The notes under the pieces were generated by a model. It saw nothing but the letters and a program-made list of their open reading frames with translations. It searched no databases and was not told the origin of the DNA. The translations under genes and the position numbers were made by a program. A DNA stretch of 39,791 nucleotides from a virus. Shown piece by piece: positions 7,198 through 39,791 of the stretch. The stretch covers positions 1-39,791 of IMG/VR virus record IMGVR_UViG_3300042691_022151. One strand, 5' to 3'. Position 1 is the stretch's first letter; each line of letters starts with the position of its first letter.

Positions 7198-7419
7198 ATG
7201 CGCTTCGTCTTCCTGAGCGGCCCTGAGTGCGGCGACGTGGCCAGCACGGTCAACTTTGGCCTGCTGTTCCCTGTCGGCGTGCCGGTGGACGTGGCCGATC
7301 CGCGCATTGCTGCAAAGCTGCGCAGTAATCGGTTTTTCCGCTTGGAAGGCGATGAATTGCCCGCGACGGAAACGGCGGAAACGCCGCGCCGTCGCGGGCG
7401 TCCTCGCAAGGAGGGCTGA
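7198..7419 (+). CDS. Small head-region protein with basic AT-hook-like tail, 73 aa
   Basis: The start ATG at 7198 follows the previous stop by 3 bases. The first 50 residues (MRFVFLSGPECGDVASTVNF and onward) look globular. The C-terminus is RRRGRPRKEG, with the GRPR core of an AT-hook, so it may touch DNA. The gene lies between two decoration-like genes and before connector genes. Small proteins with this type of tail occur after capsids in related phages, function unknown. It could be a head-completion factor, but there is no direct evidence. Confidence 0.6.
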   Translation: MRFVFLSGPECGDVASTVNFGLLFPVGVPVDVADPRIAAKLRSNRFFRLEGDELPATETAETPRRRGRPRKEG

Positions 7420-7421
7420 CC

Positions 7422-8189
7422 ATGGCTGCGCCTGTTGGCTTCGACATCGTGACGGGCACGGGCACGGTTACGCCGGGCGCGTCGGGCTCCACGGCGCTGA
7501 CTGTGGCGGTTCCGGCCTATTGGGCGACCGGCGGGCTTGATCTCATTGCCGAGGATCTCGACGGCGCGACCTCGCCCACGCTTACGCTCGATGTGGGCGA
7601 CGCGAGCGACGTTGACCGCTTCATCGCCGCCAGCACCGTCGCCCAGGCGGGCGGGACGGTTGAGTATCGTCCGGCGGGCAGCGCCTATGTGCGCAGCGAT
7701 GCCGCTTCGTCCCTGTTGGTGAAGGTGGCGACGGCGGCGACCACGCCGCGATCTGGCGCGATCACGCTGGCCATCTACGGCTACCCTTCGACCTCCTACA
7801 CGATGCTCCGCGCGATGGTGATGCGTGAGCTTGGCGTGTTGAGCGAGGGCACCACCACAATTGCGGAGGATGACGCGCTGGCGCAGGAGGCTCTCCGCGA
7901 AGTCCATGAAACGCTGCGCGGGCGCGGCCTGGCCAATCGGCAAGACATGGAGTGGACGCTAGAGGCGGTGCCGCAATTTGCGGCGCGCCCCTATGCCGTG
8001 ATGGCAGCGTGGCGCCTGTCGGGCGCGTTCGGCGTTCATGCGCGGCGTGAGCAGGCGCTGGCGACCAAGGCGAGCGAGGCTGAGCGCGAGATGCGCCGCC
8101 AGACGCGCAAGGCCACGAGCGGCGATCCGGTGACGCTGGAACCCTACGAGGCCGGTGATTTCGTGCTGGATTATGGGGCGCTGGTGTGA
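7422..8189 (+). CDS. Fusion: decoration-like domain plus P22 gp4-like head-tail adaptor, 255 aa
   Basis: Residues about 1-127 repeat the beta-rich domain of the protein at 6754 (shared SPTL...VGDA...DRFIA core). From about residue 128 a helical adaptor-type domain follows: MVMRELGVLSEGTTTIAEDD, then ALREVHETLRGRG and a helix with AWRLSGAFGV. This resembles P22 gp4-like tail accessory proteins, which seal the portal from below. The likely role is as a connector ring under the portal with an attached decoration module. The stop overlaps the next start (GTGA). The fusion is visible in one uninterrupted frame. The function of the first half is inferred. Confidence 0.65.
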   Translation: MAAPVGFDIVTGTGTVTPGASGSTALTVAVPAYWATGGLDLIAEDLDGATSPTLTLDVGDASDVDRFIAASTVAQAGGTVEYRPAGSAYVRSDAASSLLVKVATAATTPRSGAITLAIYGYPSTSYTMLRAMVMRELGVLSEGTTTIAEDDALAQEALREVHETLRGRGLANRQDMEWTLEAVPQFAARPYAVMAAWRLSGAFGVHARREQALATKASEAEREMRRQTRKATSGDPVTLEPYEAGDFVLDYGALV

Positions 8190-14214: not shown

Positions 14215-14585
14215 GCCTCTTTAGCTTCACGTCAGAACCGCCGCTCCGCGAGGACATGGCGGGGCGGGATGGGCGCGCGTCTCGTGCTTGGCATGTGTGG
14301 TTCAGCTTTGTGGCGTCGCGCCTGTCCAAGGCGTTGATTGCGGCGGTGACTGTGGACCTTGGGCCGATCAGCCCACTGGCGCGACAGTCGGTCACGGTCA
14401 CGGTTCCGGGCGCTGCGGTGGGCGATTTCGCCATTGCGTCTTTTGTGCCGGCGAGTGCTGACCTGACGATGATGGCGCATGTGAGCGCCGCCGAGACGGT
14501 CACGGTTTGGTTTCTCAATCTGAGCGCGGCGACCACGGTGGACCTATTGCCGGGAACCTTGCGCGTGCGTGTGGAGAAAGTCTGA
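14211..14585 (+). CDS. Small virion-associated hypothetical protein, 124 aa
   Basis: ATG at 14211 overlaps the gp10-like stop. The N-terminal PPLREDMAGRDGRASRAWHV resembles the start of small structural proteins near tail genes in many phages. The rest is strongly beta (VTVTVPGAAVGDFAIASFVP, TVTVWFLNLSAATTVDL), like a small jelly-roll or fibre-cap domain. No signal peptide. The stop is TGATG with the next gene. It is probably a minor tail component; I cannot name the family. Confidence 0.6.
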   Translation: MSLFSFTSEPPLREDMAGRDGRASRAWHVWFSFVASRLSKALIAAVTVDLGPISPLARQSVTVTVPGAAVGDFAIASFVPASADLTMMAHVSAAETVTVWFLNLSAATTVDLLPGTLRVRVEKV

Positions 14586-15229
14586 TGTGGGAATACATCC
14601 TGCCTGCGGCGGTGTCCGGCATCGGCGCGCTTGTCGGCTCCAATGCAAGCAAGGCGGCGACACAGGCGCAGGTGCAGGCAGCCGGCGAGTCCTCGGCGGT
14701 GCAGTCTCAGCTAGGCAACCGCGCGCTTGACCTGCAACAGCAGCAATTCGACCTCGGGCGATCCGACCTTGCGCCGTATCGCGAGGCGGGCACGGCGGCG
14801 CTCGGCACCTATGCCGGCGAGGTGGATCTGCCGTTTACCGAAACGCCGGGCTATCAAGCGCGGTTCAACGAGGGCGTGCGCGCCATCGATGCCGGGGCAG
14901 GGGCGCGCGGGCTTCTGGATAGCGGGGCGCGGCTCAAGGCGTTGACGCGCTTCGGCACGGACCAAGCGGAACAGGGCTACGACGCCTATGCGAACCGCCT
15001 GGCAGGGCTTGCGGGCGTCGGGCAGACGGCGACGCAGGCGGGCGTTGCGCAGGGGCAGGGCTTTGCTGGGCAGGCTTCGGGCACGCTCGGCAATCTGGCG
15101 CAGGGGCTTTCGCAGACGGCGCAGTTTGGCGGGCAGGCACAGGCGGCGGGCGCTGTTGGGCAGGCCAACGCGATCAACTCCGGGATCCAGAACGGAACGC
15201 TTCTCTATGCGCTCGGGATGGGGAGATAA
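14585..15229 (+). CDS. DNA ejection protein, P22 gp7-like, 214 aa
   Basis: Small internal virion protein, expected to be injected before DNA. An N-terminal hydrophobic segment (YILPAAVSGIGALVGSNASK) is followed by an Ala/Gln-rich helix and the family signature: YQARFNEGVRAIDAGAGARG, then LDSGARLKALTRFGTD and YANRLAGLAGVGQTAT. The C-terminus is repetitive Gly/Gln/Ala, likely disordered. The order of small ejection protein followed by two larger Ala/Gln-rich proteins parallels P22 genes 7, 20 and 16. The start ATG shares a base with the previous stop. Confidence 0.78.
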   Translation: MWEYILPAAVSGIGALVGSNASKAATQAQVQAAGESSAVQSQLGNRALDLQQQQFDLGRSDLAPYREAGTAALGTYAGEVDLPFTETPGYQARFNEGVRAIDAGAGARGLLDSGARLKALTRFGTDQAEQGYDAYANRLAGLAGVGQTATQAGVAQGQGFAGQASGTLGNLAQGLSQTAQFGGQAQAAGAVGQANAINSGIQNGTLLYALGMGR

Positions 15230-16470: not shown

Positions 16471-18549
16471 ATGGCAATCGTGCAAATGCCGGACGGCAGC
16501 GTTGTGGAGTTTCCGGAAGGCACCGCGCCGGAAGTCATGGAGCGCGCGCTGCGCGGGTTCCGGGCGCCTGCGGAGCAAATGCCGGGCGCATGGGCGCCAA
16601 CGGCGGCGGTGCGCGGCATTGGCGATCTTGTCGGGCTGCCGCGCGATCTCATGGATCTTCGCGACCAAGCCATCAATGCGGGCGTCGGCTATCTGGAAGA
16701 TCGCGGCGTGCCTGGCGTCCGGCGCGTGGCCGAGGGCGTGCGCGCTGTGGAGCGGCTGATGCCGGGCATGAGCGGGCGCGGCCCGACTGGTGAGCAGGTA
16801 TCCGGCGCCATCATGGACGCGACGGGCATGGAGCCGGTGGAGCCGGAGACGACCGCCGGACGCATCGGCGCCGAGGCGCTGCGGTTTGCGGCGGGCTCGG
16901 CGGTGGGCGGGTCTATGCCTGCCGTGGCGCGCAATGCGCTTGCCGGGGCTGTGGCTGGGACGGCCTCCGGAGGCGCTGGGGAGGCCACACGCGGCAGTGC
17001 GGCAGAACCCTTTGCGCGTGCCGCCGGGGCTCTGGCGCCCGCTGCCGTGGGCGGCGCGGCCCGTGTGGTGCGTGGCAATCCGGTGCGTGATGCCGCAGCG
17101 GCTCTCGACGGCGTAACGCCGCAGCAGATGGAGCAGGCGCAGGCGCTCATGCGGCAGGCCGAGCAACTCGGCTCGCCTATCACCTTGCCCGAAGCCGTGC
17201 AGCAGGTGGCAGGCCCAAACCGCAACCTGCGCAACGTGCAGGATCTTGCGCAGAACAGCATCGGCGGGCAACGGGTAATGAACCCGTTCTTGGATCGCCG
17301 GGACGCTGGCGCGCGGCAGGCAGCCGAGCAATTCGCGGAGCAGTTTGCACCGCAAGGGCGCGGCGCCGCCATGATCCCGGCAGGCATCCAAGAGGCCGCA
17401 CAAGCCGAGGTGGCGGCAGCCTATCGCGCGCGATCCGAAGCCGTGGCGCCGCTGTATGCGCAGGCGGCGCAGGATGCCGCACAGCCAGGCGTGCGAGGCG
17501 CTGTGCGAGGCATCGTATTCGCCGGCATGACCCGGCTGGAACAGGCGGCGGCGCGCGATCAGTCCGGCATCTTGCGGCCGCAATTTGAACAGATGGCCGA
17601 GCGGTTCCGCGCGCCGTTCGACCCCGCCAATCCGCAGCCGATGGATTGGGACAGCATCAACGACGCTCGCCGCTACATTCGCGACGTGATGCGCGCGCAG
17701 GGGCAGCCGGGCCAGCCGGTGGTTGACCGCAAGGTTGCGGGCGAGGCGCTGCGAGTCATCGAGCAAATGACGGACCAGCTAAAGCGCGCCGTGCCGTCCC
17801 TTGCGGCGGCGGATCGTGAGTATATCCGCCTGACGCAAGAGGTGGTGGCACCAGTCGAGCGCGGCATCATCGGTCGGGTTTCCGAGACCGACAACGCGCA
17901 GTCTCAGCGCGCGCTGCTGTTTCCGCGCTCGCCTATGGGTGGCGCCGTGCCGACCACGCCGGAAGCGGCGGGCGAGGCTTTCGGGCGGCTGGCAGGGCCG
18001 CAGGCCACGCGGGCGCGCGTGGGGACCGGCGACCTCGACAACGCGCGCGGGCTGTTGGGCGCCGAGCTTCGCGCCCGGCTAGACGAGGCGCTGGCGCTGC
18101 GCGCTTCCGGCCCGACCGAGCGCGCGGGCGCTGCCTCCATTGCGCGGATCGCCCCGACGCAGGGCCGCGAAGACACCATCATGGCGTCCTTTCGCGCGCT
18201 GCCAGGTGGCGACCAAGCGGCCGAGGGCTTCGCGCGCATGATGGACGTGTTGCATGCGCAGACCTTTGCGCCGGCTCGCGGCAGCCAGACGGCAGCCCGC
18301 ACAGAAGCCGCGCAGCGCGCGACGGGTGGCGTCAGGGCCGCAACCAATCCGGTGCGCGAGGGTCAACGCTTTATCGAGGATTGGTCCCGCAACACCAATA
18401 CGCAGGCGCTGGCCGAGGCGCTCACCACGCCACAGGGCTTCAATATGCTGCGCGCGCTAGCCGGGCTCGATGACGTGGCAGCGCGCGAGCGGCTGGTTTC
18501 GCAGATCCTCAGTTACGACCGCTCGCGGCGAGCCGCAGAGCCGCGATAG
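16471..18549 (+). CDS. Large internal/ejection protein (P22 gp16-position), 692 aa
   Basis: The N-terminus MAIVQMPDGSVVEFPEGTAP (residues 1-20) is a small beta module found at the start of many phage internal virion proteins. Glycine/alanine-rich hydrophobic stretches around 140-205 could act at a membrane. The remaining 400 residues are long helices, e.g. near QQMEQAQALMRQAEQLGSPI and RYIRDVMRAQGQPGQPVVDR. This is typical of the largest ejected protein in P22-like particles. No lysozyme or transglycosylase motif was found. Its 3' end overlaps a convergent reverse-strand gene by 41 bases. Confidence 0.68.
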   Translation: MAIVQMPDGSVVEFPEGTAPEVMERALRGFRAPAEQMPGAWAPTAAVRGIGDLVGLPRDLMDLRDQAINAGVGYLEDRGVPGVRRVAEGVRAVERLMPGMSGRGPTGEQVSGAIMDATGMEPVEPETTAGRIGAEALRFAAGSAVGGSMPAVARNALAGAVAGTASGGAGEATRGSAAEPFARAAGALAPAAVGGAARVVRGNPVRDAAAALDGVTPQQMEQAQALMRQAEQLGSPITLPEAVQQVAGPNRNLRNVQDLAQNSIGGQRVMNPFLDRRDAGARQAAEQFAEQFAPQGRGAAMIPAGIQEAAQAEVAAAYRARSEAVAPLYAQAAQDAAQPGVRGAVRGIVFAGMTRLEQAAARDQSGILRPQFEQMAERFRAPFDPANPQPMDWDSINDARRYIRDVMRAQGQPGQPVVDRKVAGEALRVIEQMTDQLKRAVPSLAAADREYIRLTQEVVAPVERGIIGRVSETDNAQSQRALLFPRSPMGGAVPTTPEAAGEAFGRLAGPQATRARVGTGDLDNARGLLGAELRARLDEALALRASGPTERAGAASIARIAPTQGREDTIMASFRALPGGDQAAEGFARMMDVLHAQTFAPARGSQTAARTEAAQRATGGVRAATNPVREGQRFIEDWSRNTNTQALAEALTTPQGFNMLRALAGLDDVAARERLVSQILSYDRSRRAAEPR

Positions 18550-28962: not shown

Positions 28963-29824
28963 CGTTGCTCTCCATCATCATCGCGGCGCGGCGCTCGCCG
29001 GCTGCCTGGCGCACAGCCTGCACCGCGTCGGAGTCCCATGCCGTCAGCGCCTCGAAGTGCAGCCCCATCGCGGCGATCCACTCGTCAAGCGCCTGCACGC
29101 TTTCCAGCTTGCCGATGGCAACGCGGCACCATGTGACCCACTGCGCGGCGTGCTTCGCGGATTTCAGGCTGCCATCAGGCGCCAGCATCGGCCAGCCATC
29201 CGGGCCGTCCACGACCGGCGGCGCACGCTCGGCCATGATCTCGGCGCCCGCGTCGATGACCGGGCCACGCGCGGGCGGCATCGGCTCAGCAGGTATGTCC
29301 TGCGCCTCCTCCACGGTGATGACGCCACGCAGCGCATCGGGGAACACGTCGCGGATAGCGAAGCCACGGGCGCGCATCTGCAACATGCGATCCGGGTAGT
29401 TCTGCCACGGGCCAGACTTGCCCCACAGGCCGGCCTTTTTGGCGTCAGCAACGGAGAACGTGCGGCGCTGCGGCGCCTCGCCCCGGCGCGTGACCTCGCA
29501 GAAGCCGGCGCGGTTATCGCCTTCGCCTTCGATGCCTTCGCGGATGCCGGCGCAGGCCGGATGCGAGCGCACCAGCGCAAGGGCGGCGTCGCCCCACAGA
29601 GAAGGCTTGCCGTTGATGATGCTGATCCCGTTGAGCGCCTGCAACGGGCCAAGCCCGACTTCGGCGCCCCACTGGAGAGCTACCATCACGGCTTCCGGCC
29701 GGTTGGTGTAATCCTTCGGTACCATGCCGCTCTTGGCGAGCATCTGCGCGAATTGCACTGCCTCGCCAAACGACTGCGGCGCGAGGCTGGCGCTACCGGC
29801 TCGGGTAGCAATAGCACTGGACAT
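28955..29824 (-). CDS. recT: RecT-family single-strand annealing protein
   Basis: Promotes annealing of single-stranded DNA in phage recombination. The conserved RecT core is visible: ALQWGAEVGLGPLQALNGIS (about 50-69) followed by IINGKPSLWGDAALALVRSH, and later KAGLWGKSGPWQNYPDRML and RARGFAIRDVFPDALRGVIT. The C-terminal 90 residues are a separate helical tail. There is no obvious exonuclease next to it. Its neighbours are a Gp157-like and a zinc-finger protein. AAGGA lies about 7 bases before the ATG at 29824. Length normal for the family. Confidence 0.85.
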   Translation of the reverse strand: MSSAIATRAGSASLAPQSFGEAVQFAQMLAKSGMVPKDYTNRPEAVMVALQWGAEVGLGPLQALNGISIINGKPSLWGDAALALVRSHPACAGIREGIEGEGDNRAGFCEVTRRGEAPQRRTFSVADAKKAGLWGKSGPWQNYPDRMLQMRARGFAIRDVFPDALRGVITVEEAQDIPAEPMPPARGPVIDAGAEIMAERAPPVVDGPDGWPMLAPDGSLKSAKHAAQWVTWCRVAIGKLESVQALDEWIAAMGLHFEALTAWDSDAVQAVRQAAGERRAAMMMESNDE

Positions 29825-32987: not shown

Positions 32988-33205
32988 ACGCGCCACCGTT
33001 CAACGCCGGGCCTGTAGCCGGGCGCGACGACTACACGACCGAGCAAGGCGCGCGACGCCTAGGCCACATGATCGCAGACGCATGGCGCAAGTGCGGCGTT
33101 GATCTGCATTTCGAAGTGGTGGGCGTCGGGCTCGGGAAGGACGGCCGCTTCGCCAGCTTCTCGCCGCGCTTTCCGCAGCTTCTCAACGGGCTGCCACGCA
33201 AGTGA
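32984..33205 (+). CDS. Small conserved-type early protein, 73 aa
   Basis: Residues 18-58 (YTTEQGARRLGHMIADAWRK, DLHFEVVGVGLGKDG) resemble a short alpha-beta phage protein found at the start of early operons in alphaproteobacterial phages, ending QLLNGLPRK. The frame is also open from ATG 32807, but that start overlaps the promoter region and is less likely. Coupled to the next gene by GTGA at 33202. Function unknown. Confidence 0.6.
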   Translation: MNAPPFNAGPVAGRDDYTTEQGARRLGHMIADAWRKCGVDLHFEVVGVGLGKDGRFASFSPRFPQLLNGLPRK

Positions 33206-34077
33206 GCGCCGCAGAGATCCCGAGTGCCGGCGGGGATGATACCGGCACCCTCCCTGTAAACTTGACCCCGGCGGCGGCTAACGCTGTCGCCGGGGCTTTT
33301 TCCTGGGAGCCGACATCGCGCGGCGCGGCGCCAATCGATCTACTGCTCCAGTGGCAGGCCGAAGGGCTGAGCTACTACGCCATCGCGCGCCGCATCGGTC
33401 GCGATCCTCGCACCGTGCAGAAGCGCCTAGAGCGGTATGCGGTGCAGCCGGAAGCCTGCCAGGTAGATCGCCACGCCGAGTTTGCCGAGCGCGTCGCGGC
33501 ACTCTGGGCGCGCGGTATGACGCAGCGGCAGATTAGCCAGCACATCCACGCCTGCGAACGCCGCGTGCGCGCTGTTACCAAGACGTTACCGAAGCCGCAG
33601 CGGCACCGCAAGCAGACGCCGACGCAACACTTCCTGGACAAGTGCGAAGCCTTCGTCGCGCTGGTTAAGGCCGGATCAACGTTCTACGAGGCGCGCGAGC
33701 GGGTCGGCATCGGCAAGGACGTTTACCGCAGGCTTGTCTTGCAGCACGGGCTAGTCTCGACGCGCAAGCCGCGACCGGCATCGGCCAAGCCGCGCCGCGA
33801 GAAAGCGCCGCCGGTTGAGCGCATTGCACGCGCCAAAGAAGCACCGCCCAACCCCTACCGCACCGAAGCGCAGAATGCCGTCATCAAGCTGTGGAAGGGC
33901 GAAGTCGGCATGGTGGTGCGCGGGCGAGACACGCGATCCGTGCCGCCGCCGCACAACGCTGAGCAACTCATTGCCGACGCCATCGCAGCCGGGCGCGTCA
34001 CGCGTTGCCCGCCGCGTGCGGTGTTGTCCGTGAACCAGGGGCTCGGCTTCGCGCCGGCTCCGGAGGTCAATCGATGA
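33202..34077 (+). CDS. Multi-HTH DNA-binding protein, 291 aa
   Basis: GTG start at 33202 overlaps the previous stop. Three HTH-type segments are visible: LSYYAIARRIGRDPRTVQKR (about 57-76), MTQRQISQHIHACERRVRAV (about 105-124), and TFYEARERVGIGKDVYRRLV (about 158-178). A basic linker and an Arg/Lys-rich region follow. It is probably an early regulator or an initiator protein binding repeats. A terminator hairpin lies in its first 100 bases, so expression may be attenuated. No recombinase catalytic residues seen. Coupled to the helicase by ATGA. Confidence 0.68.
   Translation: MSAAEIPSAGGDDTGTLPVNLTPAAANAVAGAFSWEPTSRGAAPIDLLLQWQAEGLSYYAIARRIGRDPRTVQKRLERYAVQPEACQVDRHAEFAERVAALWARGMTQRQISQHIHACERRVRAVTKTLPKPQRHRKQTPTQHFLDKCEAFVALVKAGSTFYEARERVGIGKDVYRRLVLQHGLVSTRKPRPASAKPRREKAPPVERIARAKEAPPNPYRTEAQNAVIKLWKGEVGMVVRGRDTRSVPPPHNAEQLIADAIAAGRVTRCPPRAVLSVNQGLGFAPAPEVNR
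33224..33248 (+). promoter_or_regulatory. First hairpin of a two-hairpin leader element
   Basis: GTGCCGG (33224-33230) and CCGGCAC (33242-33248) form a perfect 7-bp stem with an 11-base loop. It lies 17 bases before a terminator hairpin. Together they may form an attenuator or an antitermination RNA site. Confidence 0.4.
33266..33301 (+). terminator. Rho-independent terminator inside the 5' end of the HTH gene
   Basis: CCCCGGCG (33266-33273) pairs with CGCCGGGG (33288-33295), followed by CTTTTT. It is as strong as the other terminators here but lies within the open frame of the HTH protein. Either the true start is further downstream or transcription is attenuated here until antitermination or active translation. 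Confidence 0.6.
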
Positions 34078-35450: not shown

Positions 35451-36376
35451 ACGAAGCCCACGGGGATAACTTCGTGGCGTATCATGGCGATTGCGTGGAC
35501 GTGCTGCGCCAGTTGCCAGAGCGGTCAATCGATTTCTCTGTTTACTCGCCGCCATTCGGCAACCTGTTCATTTACTCAAGCAGCGCCGCCGACATGGGCA
35601 ATTCGTCCTGCGATGGCGAGTTTGCCGCGCACTACGCGTACGGGGTCGCAGAAAAAATCCGCATCACGAAGCCGGGCCGGCTTAGCGCCGTGCATTGCTC
35701 TGACCTGCCCACGCGCGCTTGGTGCGACGGCGAGGTTGGGCTGAAAGACTTTAGCGGCGACATCATCCGTATCCATGTCGCTGCGGGCTGGGTCTATCAC
35801 TCGCGCGTCACCATCTGGAAAGACCCGGTGATTGAGCAGACGCGATCCAAGCCGGTCGGGCTCAACTATGGCCAAATGGTCAAGGACAGCGCCAAGTCGC
35901 GCGTCGGGATGCCCGACTATCTACTGATCTTCCGCAAGCCCGGCATCAACGCCGAGCCCATCCCGCACGACATGGGCGAGGAAACCACGCGCCGGCTTGG
36001 CCGCGAGGATCGCCGCACCATCGGCGCTCATCAGATGCCGCTAGAGAAGTGGCAGGAATGGGCCTCGCCGGTTTGGATGACGATCAACCAGACGCGCACG
36101 CTCAACGCCGCAGCAGCGAAAGACATGGGCGACGAGCGCCATCTCTGCCCGCTGCAACAGGATGTGATCGAGCGCGCGTTGCATCTGTGGAGCAACCCCG
36201 GCGACGTGGTGCTGTCGCCGTTCCTCGGGATCGGTTCCGAAGGCGTCGAGAGCCTCAAGGCGCGGCGCAAGTTCATCGGGGTGGAGTTGAAGGAGAGTTA
36301 CTGGCGGCAGGCGGTGCGCAACTTGACTGCGGCTCATGCCGATGCCGTCGATCTTTTCGACGTTGTGGGCGCATGA
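35432..36376 (+). CDS. DNA methyltransferase, beta-type amino-methylase, 314 aa
   Basis: Methylates an exocyclic amino group of adenine or cytosine. The catalytic motif is SPPF (residues 39-42, in DFSVYSPPFGNLFIYS) and precedes the SAM-binding loop SPFLGIGSEG (about 262-271), followed by RRKFIGVELKESY. This order is the beta class, and SPP often occurs in N4-cytosine enzymes, but N6-adenine is possible. The start ATG 35432 has AAGGGAGG 8 bases upstream inside the helicase end. No restriction partner is present. It may protect phage DNA from host restriction. Confidence 0.9.
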   Translation: MAIRCLNEAHGDNFVAYHGDCVDVLRQLPERSIDFSVYSPPFGNLFIYSSSAADMGNSSCDGEFAAHYAYGVAEKIRITKPGRLSAVHCSDLPTRAWCDGEVGLKDFSGDIIRIHVAAGWVYHSRVTIWKDPVIEQTRSKPVGLNYGQMVKDSAKSRVGMPDYLLIFRKPGINAEPIPHDMGEETTRRLGREDRRTIGAHQMPLEKWQEWASPVWMTINQTRTLNAAAAKDMGDERHLCPLQQDVIERALHLWSNPGDVVLSPFLGIGSEGVESLKARRKFIGVELKESYWRQAVRNLTAAHADAVDLFDVVGA

Positions 36377-36960
36377 GCGCGCCCGCCGTCTGCCTCGCGC
36401 TGCTGTTGGACGCCAGCGCATCGGTTGACACGCAGGCATGGCGCTTGATGTTGGACGGACACGCCGAAGCGTTCCGCCAGCCTGCCGTCATACGCGCCGC
36501 CGAGACGGATGGGCTGGCCGTGGCGCTGATCCAATACAGCGACGCGCCATCGCCGGCGACCTGGCGCATTCTCCGCACCGAAGCCGAAGCCCGCCGCTAC
36601 GCCGCTCAGATCGCCGCGCAGCCGCGCCAGCACATGGCCGGGACCAATACCGGCCGCGCGATTCATGCCGCGCTGGACGCAATGGAAAGCGGGCCAGCGT
36701 GCGAACAGCATGTGATCGACGTGGCGACCGATGGCGCGGCCAGCGATTGGGAAGATGTCCGGACGGCACGCGAGCGGGCGCAGAACATCGGCGTGCGGAT
36801 CAATGCCGTGGGCGTGGTCACGACCGCCGACCCGGACCCGGAGCCATGGTTGCGGCAGGAGATCATCACGGCGGACGGGTTCGTCATCATCGCGGATGGG
36901 TGGGCGGATTTTGCGCGGGCGATTTCCAGGAAACTGGTTATCGAGGTGAGCGCGCGATGA
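36373..36960 (+). CDS. Von Willebrand factor A domain protein (DUF1194-like), 195 aa
   Basis: A single vWA domain. The metal-ion (MIDAS) site reads LLDASASVD (D13, S15, S17), with GTNTGRAI (about 90-97) and VATDGAASD (D120) supplying the other ligands. The sequence between (WRLMLDGHAEAFRQPAVIRA) is like the DUF1194 family. No signal peptide, so it is cytoplasmic here. ATG overlaps the methyltransferase stop; its own stop overlaps the RuvC-like gene. Partner unknown: perhaps a scaffold for nucleic-acid enzymes. DUF1194 proteins are otherwise mostly bacterial. Confidence 0.8.
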   Translation: MSAPAVCLALLLDASASVDTQAWRLMLDGHAEAFRQPAVIRAAETDGLAVALIQYSDAPSPATWRILRTEAEARRYAAQIAAQPRQHMAGTNTGRAIHAALDAMESGPACEQHVIDVATDGAASDWEDVRTARERAQNIGVRINAVGVVTTADPDPEPWLRQEIITADGFVIIADGWADFARAISRKLVIEVSAR

Positions 36961-37433
36961 TCGTCGGCGTGGACGTTGGAGCATCCGGCGCCATCGCATG
37001 GATGACGGACGAAGGGCACCTTATTGAGGTGCGCGACCTGCCGCACATCAAGGGCCACGGCATGTGTCCCGCGATGCTCGCCGGATGGCTGCGCGAGCCG
37101 GGGCGCGGGCCGGTTCATGCCTTCGTTGAACGCGTCGCATCCAGGCCCGGCCAAGGCGTGGTTTCGGTGTTCACGTTCGGTCGTGCCTTCGGAATGATCG
37201 AGGGCGTGCTAGGCGCCGAGGAAGTGCCGGTCACGATGGTGACGCCAGCGAAGTGGAAAGCGCATTTCGGGCTCGGCACGGACAAGAACGCATCCCGCGC
37301 ACGCGCCGCGCAGCTATGGCCCGGCCTTGCAGGCACCTTTGCCCGCGCGAAGGACGATGGCCGAGCCGAGGCTGCGCTGATCGCGCTCTACGGCGCCAAC
37401 AGCTTGCACGGGGCTGGGAAGGGCGGCGCATGA
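36957..37433 (+). CDS. RuvC-like Holliday junction endonuclease, 158 aa
   Basis: RNase H-fold resolvase. Acidic residues are D6 (VGVDVGASGAI), E58 (AFVERV) and D133/D134 (AKDDGRAEAALIALYG), as in RuvC. The segment VTPAKWKAHFGLGTDKNASR is also typical of phage RuvC-like proteins. It would cut branched intermediates before packaging. ATG at 36957 overlaps the vWA stop. Length matches RuvC (about 160-170 aa). Confidence 0.85.
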   Translation: MIVGVDVGASGAIAWMTDEGHLIEVRDLPHIKGHGMCPAMLAGWLREPGRGPVHAFVERVASRPGQGVVSVFTFGRAFGMIEGVLGAEEVPVTMVTPAKWKAHFGLGTDKNASRARAAQLWPGLAGTFARAKDDGRAEAALIALYGANSLHGAGKGGA

Positions 37434-37576
37434 ACCACGACGAAGCCGAGCGCGCGGCGATGCAGTGGTTCTACGCGCAGCCCGCATCCGCCGATCCGTG
37501 GGTGCCAGGCACGCCGGACAGGCTGGCGGCGGGGCTGCTGCGATCCGCCAAGGAAGCACGGGAGGCGCGCAAGTGA
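37430..37576 (+). CDS. Small hypothetical protein, 48 aa
   Basis: ATG at 37430 overlaps the RuvC-like stop and the stop overlaps the next GTG. The sequence AERAAMQWFYAQPASADPWV plus a basic tail (LLRSAKEAREARK) is short and mostly helical. No domain visible. Likely an operon spacer-type early protein. Confidence 0.5.
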   Translation: MNHDEAERAAMQWFYAQPASADPWVPGTPDRLAAGLLRSAKEAREARK

Positions 37577-39600
37577 GCCTGACGGATACCGCGCTATTCT
37601 TGGCCGAGCAGTGGCCCGTTTTCCCATGCGACGCCAACAAGCGGCCGGTTACAGAACACGGCTTTAAGGACGCCACGCGCGATCCGGCGCAGATCGCGGC
37701 CATGTTCCGCCGGCCAGGCGCCTGCATGATCGGCGTTCCGACCGGCGCGGCATCCGACCTGCTCGTGATCGACCTCGATGTGAAGGACGGGCGCCCCGGT
37801 CTGGAATGGCTTGCGGCCAACCAACACCGCATCCCGCGCACTCGCCAGCACTCGACGCGATCCGGCGGGCGGCATCTGCTGTTCCGGTATCCGCAAGGCC
37901 GAGACATTCGCAACAGCGCGTCAAAGATCGCGCCGGGAGTGGATTGCAGGGCGAACGGCGGTTACATCATCACCGCGCCATCAGCCGGCTACAGCGTCCT
38001 AGACGACGCCATGCCCGCCGATCCGCCCGCATGGCTTATCGCGCTGCTCGACCCGCCAGCGCCGCCACCACGGCCCGCGCAACCGCTGCGCAACCCAGCC
38101 CCCGGCGAGGCCACCAAATACGGGCGCACCTCAATCGACAGCGCCTGCGACCGGATCGCGTCCGCACATCACGGCCAAAAGCACGATACCTTGAACCGCG
38201 AAGCCTATGGCGTCGGGCAGCTTGTAGCCGGCGGCGAGATCACGGACGGAGAGGCATTCGCGCGGCTACAGGACGCGCTGGAGGCCATGCACGCGCGCCA
38301 GCCATGCGAGGACTACCGCGCGGCTGTCCGCACCCTCCACACCGCTTACAGCCAAGGCAAAGCCGCGCCACGCTCGGCGCCGCCGCCGCGATACCAAGAT
38401 GTCCGCATTCGCGTTGAGGTGATGGCGCCGGAGCCACCACCACGCGAGGCGCCGCCGGACTATTGGGAAGCCGAGCCGGTTATCGAGATTGAGGAACCAG
38501 CGCAGCCGGCAACGCATCTGACGGACAAGCCGGCATCGCCCGGCCTGCCTCTAGTCTACTGGAACGACATCCAGCCATCCCTCGAAACCGAGGATTTCGT
38601 CGAAGGCGTCCTATCCCGCCAGGCCATGAGTGTCGTTTACGGCCCATCCAACTGCGGCAAGACGTTCTGGGCTTCCGACCTGTCCATGCACGTTGCCACA
38701 GGCCGGCAATGGAACGGGCGCCAAGTAGATCCCGGCGGCGTCATCTACTGCGCCCTAGAAGGCGGCGCAGGCATCCGCAACCGCGTAGCCGCATGGCGCA
38801 AGTTCCACGGGCTTGATGGCGTCGAAGTCCCGTTCGCCATCATCCCGGTTACGCTCAACCTGCTTGACCCGCTAGCCGACGCCACGCGCGTCTGTGACGC
38901 CATCCACGCCGCCGCCCGCGAGTTCGGGGTGAGGGTCATGCTCACCGTCATGGACACGCTGGCGCGAGCTATGGCGGGCGGCAACGAGAACAGCCCCGAG
39001 GATATGGGCGCGCTCGTCACAAACGGCACCATGATCCAGCAAGTGACCGGCTCGCACCTCATGTGGATCCACCACAGCGGCAAGGACCAAGCTCAAGGCG
39101 CGCGCGGTCACTCAAGCCTTCGCGCCGCCACCGATACCGAGATCGAGATCGGGCGCCCGGACAAGGACAGCCCATCCACCGCGAATGCGACCAAGCAGCG
39201 CGAAATGGACATCGACGGCGAGTGGTCGTTCAGCCTCCAGAAGGTCGATCTAGGCATCAACCGGCGCGGCAAGCCGGTCACGTCCTGCGTGGTTCAGCCC
39301 GCCGATGGGGTTGCAAAGAGCGGTCCAAAACTCGCGCCCGGCGCGAAGTTTGCCCTTGCCGCGCTCCACGAAGTGATGATCGGAGGGGGACAACCGTCAA
39401 TGTCCCCCTCCGTCCCCCAATGGGCTCGGGTGGTGCGTTTAGACGCATGGCGCCAAGCCTTCTACCAGCGCAGTCACCTCGATAATCCGCAGACAAAAAA
39501 GAAGGCTTTTCAGCGCGCAGTCAGTGACTTGCGGGACGCTGCTGCCATCGGGTTTCACGATGATTATGTCTGGATCGCAGATGCAAAAAAGCCTCTTTGA
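37573..39600 (+). CDS. Primase-polymerase/RepA-type helicase fusion, 675 aa
   Basis: Two replication modules. The N-terminal prim-pol (about 1-160): WPVFPCDANKRPVTEHGFKD, VIDLDV with D67/D69, and RSGGRHLLFRY (H101). After a Pro-rich linker comes an AAA_25/RepA-like hexameric helicase: Walker A GPSNCGKTF (about 357-365), VIYCALEGGAGIRNRVAAWR, a Walker B-like MLTVMDTLARAM, and ATDTEIEIG. GTG start overlaps the previous stop. A large protein that can start and unwind at an origin, so the nearby GGGGGACA repeats (some inside its 3' end at 39385-39418) may be its origin. Confidence 0.88.
   Translation: MSLTDTALFLAEQWPVFPCDANKRPVTEHGFKDATRDPAQIAAMFRRPGACMIGVPTGAASDLLVIDLDVKDGRPGLEWLAANQHRIPRTRQHSTRSGGRHLLFRYPQGRDIRNSASKIAPGVDCRANGGYIITAPSAGYSVLDDAMPADPPAWLIALLDPPAPPPRPAQPLRNPAPGEATKYGRTSIDSACDRIASAHHGQKHDTLNREAYGVGQLVAGGEITDGEAFARLQDALEAMHARQPCEDYRAAVRTLHTAYSQGKAAPRSAPPPRYQDVRIRVEVMAPEPPPREAPPDYWEAEPVIEIEEPAQPATHLTDKPASPGLPLVYWNDIQPSLETEDFVEGVLSRQAMSVVYGPSNCGKTFWASDLSMHVATGRQWNGRQVDPGGVIYCALEGGAGIRNRVAAWRKFHGLDGVEVPFAIIPVTLNLLDPLADATRVCDAIHAAAREFGVRVMLTVMDTLARAMAGGNENSPEDMGALVTNGTMIQQVTGSHLMWIHHSGKDQAQGARGHSSLRAATDTEIEIGRPDKDSPSTANATKQREMDIDGEWSFSLQKVDLGINRRGKPVTSCVVQPADGVAKSGPKLAPGAKFALAALHEVMIGGGQPSMSPSVPQWARVVRLDAWRQAFYQRSHLDNPQTKKKAFQRAVSDLRDAAAIGFHDDYVWIADAKKPL
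39385..39418. repeat. GGGGGACA/TGTCCCCC repeats inside the helicase 3' end
   Basis: GGGGGACA (39385-39392), TGTCCCCC (39401-39408) and CGTCCCCC (39411-39418) lie within the helicase reading frame. They are the same octamers as the intergenic cluster 200 bases downstream. Confidence 0.6.
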
Positions 39601-39604
39601 CGAT

Positions 39605-39704
39605 GGGGGACACGATGTCCCCCAGGGGACGTCCCTTGGGGGACAAAGGGGACATGTGTCTATAGACATGTCCCTTGTCCCCCTCATGTCCCCCCAGCCT
39701 GTCC
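39605..39704. repeat. Iteron-like GGGGGACA/TGTCCCCC cluster (candidate origin)
   Basis: About ten copies in 100 bases: GGGGGACA at 39605 and 39638, GGGGACA at 39648, GGGGAC at 39625, TGTCCCCC at 39616, 39676 and 39687, TGTCCC at 39669, plus TGTCC at 39700. Both orientations occur, and the block can fold into hairpins, e.g. GGGACATGT with ACATGTCCC around 39649-39674. It directly follows the replication gene, as iterons do at plasmid-type origins. Confidence 0.55.
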
Positions 39705-39791
39705 AGGCCACCTACAAGCGGGTGCAGGACCGCCGCGCAGCCTTCGCCGCGTGGGAGGCAGCCGGATCGCCGTGGCCACCTCCGGCCGGGC
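39668..39791 (+). CDS. Small hypothetical protein, 5' part (continues at 1-140)
   Basis: The reading frame begins at the ATG 39668 (other starts: 39656 GTG, 39686 ATG) inside the repeat cluster and reads through the sequence end into position 1, ending at 140. See the entry at 1-140 for the protein description. The ribosome binding site is poor. Confidence 0.55.
   Translation, partial: MSLVPLMSPQPVQATYKRVQDRRAAFAAWEAAGSPWPPPAG
39723..39791. repeat. 69-bp direct terminal repeat, right copy
   Basis: Exact copy of 1-69, closing the circle when the ends are joined. Confidence 0.95.

Follow-up and report, generated by a model that had tools for sequence, protein, structure and literature searches.

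Arrays of short words beside phage primase-helicase genes as candidate replication origins, and the C-terminal domain that their words appear to follow

We analysed the whole of virus record IMGVR_UViG_3300042691_022151 (39,791 nucleotides; hereafter the window) and found an array of short words at the 3' end of its primase-helicase gene. From sequence comparison, this array is very probably the replication origin of the phage, with the words bound, as double-stranded DNA, by the winged helix at the C-terminus of its own primase-helicase. For AAA_25 tailed phages in general we propose something broader, on which our own judgement is evenly balanced: a self-contained and exchangeable cassette of origin specificity, made up of a winged-helix reader and the adjoining array, with more than 50 words, a partly readable residue-base code (Arg684-C6, Lys680-G3, Gln680-T3) and a near-invariant palindromic core. 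A shared loading or priming function is possible for the palindrome.

The word GGGGGACA has eight exact copies in the 39,791-base window, and seven of these lie at 39385-39694, in both orientations (39385+, 39401-, 39605+, 39616-, 39638+, 39676-, 39687-; the lone outlier is at 1990). The mean count in dinucleotide-preserving shuffles was 1.16, and none of 100 shuffles got to 8; the octamer is not equally frequent elsewhere in the window. The 7-mer GGGGACA contributes an extra site at 39648+, and partial copies of the word occur at 39412, 39625, 39631 and 39669, giving ~11-12 sites altogether. This count agrees with the preliminary description of this DNA, which had noted about 11 near-identical octamers in both orientations in the gene end and the bases that follow. 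GGGGGAC and GGGGACA were the top two locally clustered 7-mers across the entire 39.8 kb. Two of the words are in the coding sequence (39385-39408), and the remaining ones are found just 3' of the stop codon at 39600. Because the word is present in both orientations, the array region is predicted to fold strongly as single-stranded DNA (-33.9 kcal/mol, z=-6.4), and the hairpins described earlier are real. A short-repeat array adjoining an initiator gene, the arrangement that marks an iteron-type replication origin, is therefore present in the window. Its parts are as follows.

39385..39694, no strand assigned: whole array, proposed replication origin (word array, comparison, GC-skew minimum 586 bp away)
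39385..39408, no strand assigned: two convergent in-gene words, GGGGGACA (39385+) and TGTCCCCC (39401-), the core of a perfect 12-bp inverted repeat at 39381-39412
39605..39612, plus strand: word GGGGGACA, exact match
39616..39623, minus strand: word GGGGGACA, exact match
39625..39635, no strand assigned: two partial inverted words, GGGGAC / GTCCC (partial copies)
39638..39654, plus strand: left arm of the terminal module, consisting of the tandem words GGGGGACA (39638) and GGGGACA (39648), which are spaced by 9 bp when read in the 7-nt register
39658..39667, no strand assigned: central palindrome GTCTATAGAC, a variant of the conserved CC(TTTA/TAAA/TATA)GG element (sequence and comparison)
39669..39694, minus strand: right arm of the terminal module, made up of the inverted words TGTCCC (39669, partial), TGTCCCCC (39676) and TGTCCCCC (39687) (word matches)

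The convergent pair inside the gene (39385..39408) is retained in the related locus L015, and in-gene words are ~10-fold enriched across arrays. Between the window (39656-39670) and L015, a paired change was observed in the arms beside the palindrome GTCTATAGAC, ACATGT becoming ACGTGT on one side and ACACGT on the other, with the inverted repeat kept. The last word of the array overlaps the apparent beginning of the following reading frame (ATGTCCCCCCAGCC..., MSPQPVQATYKRV...; window 39686-39791, on into a second contig, L001).

The window ends in an exact 69-bp terminal repeat (1-69 = 39723-39791), and L001 has the same array and then runs into the window start. Therefore, the map closes at ~39.7 kb, with the array flanked by the replication gene and the terminase, and the contig, although classed as linear, is probably a complete circular map. 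The preliminary description had tied the proposed origin to a GC-skew minimum close by. On the closed map, the detrended minimum, at 404, is separated from the array by 586 bp, and the maximum is at 18094, nearly opposite. Over 11 genomes the picture was mixed (KS p=0.03): GC skew agreed with the array in the window phage and several others and disagreed in the CRP phages, RHph_X2_25, ct3Oc712 and G009. Considering these mixed results and the confounding effect of gene direction, we counted GC skew as minor support.

The primase-helicase matched PF09250 (Prim-Pol, E=2.6e-36) and PF13481 (AAA_25, E=6.5e-31), the combination that characterizes phage primase-helicases with an AAA_25 (RepA-type) helicase. 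Its first ~35 aa are disordered, and the true start may be later. The last ~100 residues, a domain of ~95 aa, matched no Pfam family. AlphaFold models were made of this C-terminal domain (from a 45-sequence alignment) and of the full-length protein. The domain was modeled as a winged helix (pLDDT 83.6) with the order H-E-H-H-E-E (H625-641, E655-658, H659-669, H675-691, E695-698, E701-704), and its third helix is predicted to be positioned where a recognition helix would be. Foldseek with the winged helix gave no PDB match at E<0.001 and just winged-helix-type matches at E>0.04, a PDB sequence search with the C-terminal profile gave weak matches to ribosomal S6 and similar proteins that were taken as chance, and phmmer found no solved-structure relative of the primase-helicase. 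The corresponding features are listed below.

37465..39600, plus strand: gene for the initiator of 711 aa, with Prim-Pol, AAA_25 (RepA-type hexameric helicase) and C-terminal winged helix (Pfam, AlphaFold)
39301..39597, plus strand: codons of the C-terminal winged-helix domain, aa 613-711, the putative origin-binding domain (AlphaFold, word/domain covariation)
39487..39537, plus strand: codons of the predicted recognition helix, aa 675-691 (AlphaFold helix; residue-word association)
39514-39516, plus strand: Arg684 codon CGC, within the recognition-helix codons

We collected 79 further virus loci by their helicase, together with 80 loci from bacterial genomes, and the array was used in neither search. 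An array was scored when a significant short-word cluster fell within -350..+600 of the stop codon. Such an array was found at the gene 3' end in 118 of the 164 related loci (72%), compared with 14 of 822 control segments from the same contigs (Fisher p=6e-97). Of the 79 bacterial-genome loci, 64 had their best cluster anywhere within the ~8.7 kb at the gene 3' end (expected 10.4, p=3e-42). The words differed widely, with 57 distinct 7-nt core words among 110 good arrays, and the commonest forms were NNNNACA or NNNNRAA. Rhizobium phages 16-3 and RHph_X2_25 carry 13-14 copies of GCGTGACA at the equivalent place, the word of a Manatee Spring phage is TGGGACA, and the Roseobacter phages CRP-823 and CRP-831 have ACTACAAA and TGTATAAA, respectively. 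Together with the covariation of word and domain described below, the frequency of the array among relatives strongly supports the earlier suggestion of an iteron-type origin beside a RepA-like helicase. The adjacent array is absent in ~28% of the relatives, two of which were searched over most of the genome. Primase-helicase relatives in phages of Mycobacterium, Gordonia and Microcystis (L008, L009, L010, L014) had no such array in the stretch examined.

Other kinds of repeats were also seen in this collection. In two primase relatives (L011 3806-4097 and L005 2817-2922), word clusters (CAGTTGAA, CACGTTCA) were located within the gene instead of at the 3' end. CCAACCTC occurs ~13 times at L184 3341-3620 (G008) and CAATCTGG ~20 times at L187 ~14390-14758 (G010 33390-33758), both as long tandem runs in one orientation that lie far from the primase-helicase gene and are probably repetitive protein genes.

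Over 1654 array pairs, word distance was correlated with identity of the C-terminal domain (Spearman -0.55) more strongly than with that of the helicase (-0.22), and the partial correlations were -0.52 and 0.00, respectively. Since array pairs are not independent, natural swaps weigh more. L061 and L058 have helicases 100% identical and alignable primases ~100% identical, and their C-terminal domains are 80% identical; their words are GT(A/C)GGAAA and GCGGAGGA, the change being made at many sites in register, with the spacers and the palindrome ATACCTTTAGGTAT unchanged. CRP-823 and CRP-831 (helicase 99%, C-terminal domain 66%) likewise exchange ACTACAAA for TGTATAAA in register at many sites, and the spacers and palindrome are retained. 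Phage 16-3 and three relatives (L047, L067, L068) share 71-74% of the primase, 85-88% of the helicase and 34-44% of the C-terminal domain, and use four different words. A swap in the reverse direction was found between L022 and L023, in which the N-terminal halves are unrelated (21%), the helicase is 96% and the C-terminal domain 91% identical, and the word CGGGACA is common to both. Here a Prim-Pol (L022 4001-6010) stands against a region without a Pfam family (L023 3356-5506), which is a natural primase replacement. Relatives with TOPRIM instead of Prim-Pol have the same kind of array. These comparisons suggest that the word tracks the C-terminal domain and not the helicase or the primase.

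It is quite improbable that the words are recognised by the primase domain, in the way that TTTGGTTA serves the NrS-1 primase-polymerase, instead of being double-stranded sites of the C-terminal domain. That enzyme starts at an 8-nt word, which its primase part reads on the single-stranded template (PMC8718748), and the present system, like NrS-1, combines a phage Prim-Pol with a short word, 7-8 nt long and on both strands. Moreover, primase identity was correlated with word distance (partial correlation -0.41). However, the same kind of array occurs with unrelated primases (Prim-Pol, TOPRIM), the primase replacement in L022/L023 left the word unchanged, the word differs in L061/L058 despite the identity of their alignable primase parts, and the strongest residue link was in the recognition helix of the winged helix. 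The swaps contradict the primase as the cause, so its correlation with the word was attributed to shared ancestry, and primase sites were rejected as the main reading. Unlike in NrS-1, the evidence here favors the C-terminal winged helix as the reader.

When alignment columns were ranked by their association with the word, Arg684 was first (z 9.0) and Lys680 second (z 8.1); these residues are one turn apart in the predicted recognition helix. The mean association z was 3.0 in this helix, compared with 0.4 in the helicase. The register of the words was chosen blind to the proteins, under a declared rule that favored A as the last letter and A or C as the one preceding it, and is uncertain for a few (e.g., L130, L133, L152). 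The link of Arg684 with C at word position 6 (table 59/2/9/23, p=1.7e-12) was the best of 7637 residue-base tests, and it was still first after dereplication at 45% identity (p=1e-8). On the helicase tree, 12 of the 16 independent pairs differing at 684 were concordant, none was opposite and 4 were uninformative (p=0.0005), the cleanest pair being L143 (FNR, CGGGACA) and L146 (FSQ, CGGGATA). Weaker links agreed, namely K679/K680 with G3 and Q680 with T3. The Arg684 rule was broken in 11 of 93 dereplicated arrays and also in L197, a plasmid relative with the word CGCAACA and, by eye, no Arg at 684. Among other loci outside the training set, likewise judged by eye, Arg684 accompanied a C6 word in L199, L200, L201, L202, L044, L040 and L066, L060 had Gln and an A6 word, and L198 was ambiguous.

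The preliminary description had named another possible binder, the helix-turn-helix protein encoded at 33202-34077. This protein has a DNA-binding domain (HTH_38), but covariation links the word, down to single residues, to the winged helix at the C-terminus of the primase-helicase. No support for the protein as binder was found, and we consider that role barely conceivable.

Spacing was studied in 699 sites from 86 dereplicated arrays. For neighbors in the same orientation, the start-to-start distance had a sharp peak at 9-10 bp (141 of ~315 within 45 bp). This distance, about one helical turn, would suit side-by-side binding. The palindrome CC(TTTA or TAAA)GG was present in 50 of 110 arrays, compared with 0.006 expected per array (per 600 bp) from its rate elsewhere in the loci, and in 40 of these 50 arrays words converge from both sides. 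The terminal module of the window reads (GGGGGACAAA GGGGACA) TGT GTCTATAGAC A (TGTCCC TTGTCCCCC), and a TATA-centred form, CCTATAGG, was found in a Methylobacterium plasmid and in ct3Oc712. The palindrome is a putative helicase-loading or priming core.

Two relatives without an adjacent array, G001 and G003, were read over nearly the whole contigs. In G001, where the gene ends at 920, TGTATGAAT words lie 6.4 kb away at 7386-7499; L050-L052 use this word too and have the same helix residues, NPRS..KQA. In G003, TGCACAAA is found at 29458-29699, ~4.1 kb away from the gene end at 33832, and the array contains the only CCTAAAGG of that contig. Since these displaced arrays have words fitting the helix, the word follows the protein and not the position. 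Relatives that keep the replication gene without the cluster had been named beforehand as a point against the origin; they do exist, but G001 and G003 carry a displaced array that fits the helix. In the partial marine contigs (L056, L065-L092) there were no displaced GTATGAA arrays, which is uninformative in contigs so short.

The recurrence of the palindrome in displaced arrays speaks against its being merely a terminator for the gene. An array that acts as a structured RNA or a terminator of transcription, with the inverted words as hairpins of the transcript, would account for the strong predicted fold (z=-6.4) and for the compensatory changes near the palindrome between the window and L015. 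Nevertheless, Rfam gave no match, no terminator-like site was found at the array, at least 4 arrays of 4-8 words are wholly one-sided, making word-word hairpins impossible, and the palindrome accompanies the displaced arrays and not the gene end. On these grounds an RNA element or terminator was rejected. The fact that the word follows the recognition helix of a protein also speaks against such an element, and we regard it as highly improbable.

On the other hand, the words could be operators at which the C-terminal winged helix or another regulator represses or times the replication operon or late genes, with the origin elsewhere. Autoregulation is frequent among initiators, and the array is at a gene boundary beside the next operon. 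Nevertheless, the arrays are downstream of the gene and not upstream, no promoter-like site was found in 39300-39791, up to 19 words per array are set at helical spacing around a palindrome, and displaced arrays are kilobases from the gene. We consider operators alone unlikely, but a double role as operator and origin is possible and is compatible with these observations.

The preliminary description had suggested that this DNA is perhaps an extrachromosomal prophage, which is a possibility for the window phage; some relatives do reside on plasmids. In Methylobacterium (with ParA), Caenibius, M. radiotolerans and Klebsiella, the gene followed by the array was found on circular plasmids that carry phage genes, and a larger Xanthobacter plasmid has it too; the array of FF17 pD was seen by eye only. 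Because the gene tables are incomplete and another rep gene is possible, the module on plasmids is only suggestive of replicon function.

If the array is the origin, the C-terminal domain would bind the words cooperatively, and domain copies on the converging tandem pairs would load two RepA-type hexamers around the palindrome. After loading, the helicase would melt the DNA, and both strands would be primed by the primase fused to it, which is Prim-Pol in the window phage and TOPRIM or another type in relatives, leading to theta-type early replication. Since the codons of the domain and the array are contiguous at the gene 3' end, domain and origin could be exchanged as one cassette, and such exchange would keep the origins of related phages distinct.

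Several known systems have parts of this arrangement. In SaPIs, as summarized in PMC7581432 (citing Ubeda 2007), the initiator helicase uses its C-terminal domain to recognise short iterons that lie immediately downstream of the helicase gene. The isolated C-terminal domain of SCCmec Cch2 binds its repeats, and the initiators of SaPI and SCC are separate from the primase (PMC7581432). By comparison, the window phage resembles SaPI Rep/ori in that a helicase C-terminal domain appears to set iteron specificity for an origin directly downstream. Unlike in SaPI and SCC, the ATPase here is of the AAA_25/RepA type and is fused to Prim-Pol or TOPRIM primases, and the 7-8-nt words are in both orientations with a palindrome of the CC(TTTA)GG type. 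Pfam gives AAA_25, and the primase-helicase was not filed as a member of the SaPI Rep family. Like the present protein, ORF904 of pRN1 has prim-pol, helicase and winged helix in one polypeptide and an origin just downstream of its gene, this origin being a single ~100-nt stem-loop of conserved shape for which no short-word array is reported (PMC4234260). RepA of RSF1010 is a hexameric helicase, and the plasmid has iterons together with hairpins for priming on both strands (PMC4234260). The helicase here is likewise of the RepA hexameric type, but the iterons of RSF1010 are read by a separate RepC, whereas the putative reader domain here is fused to the helicase; pRN1 differs in having an SF3 helicase in place of PF13481 AAA_25. 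The alpha protein of phage satellite P4 is a fusion of primase, helicase and DNA-binding domain, whose C-terminal winged helix reads short iterons in both orientations, and P4 ori and crr are far apart. Its primase and helicase belong to families different from those here.

Literature searches with GGGGACA/TGTCCCC returned unrelated papers only, and CCCTTTAGGG likewise. The array, the diversity of words and the palindrome were not found described in a search that left most subscription journals outside, and we claim no priority. To our knowledge, most phages with a Prim-Pol and RepA-type helicase lack a mapped origin; the sequence rule would predict the origin from the genome alone, plus the domain and residues that read it. 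The near-isogenic natural swaps (CRP-823/CRP-831, which are cultured, and L061/L058) differ only in the reader domain and the words, and therefore the evolution of new initiator-origin pairs is directly testable. If our reading is true, the diversity of words would create origin-incompatibility groups of phages, and distinct words would let related phages or phage-plasmids share a host without cross-initiation. More speculatively, distinct words might evade elements that attack origins by sequence.

The early region of the phage also encodes a DUF1194/von Willebrand factor A protein (window 36049-36960; Pfam E=6e-37). A RuvC-like resolvase ORF (36438-37433) overlaps this gene in another frame, and its true start is probably near 36950.
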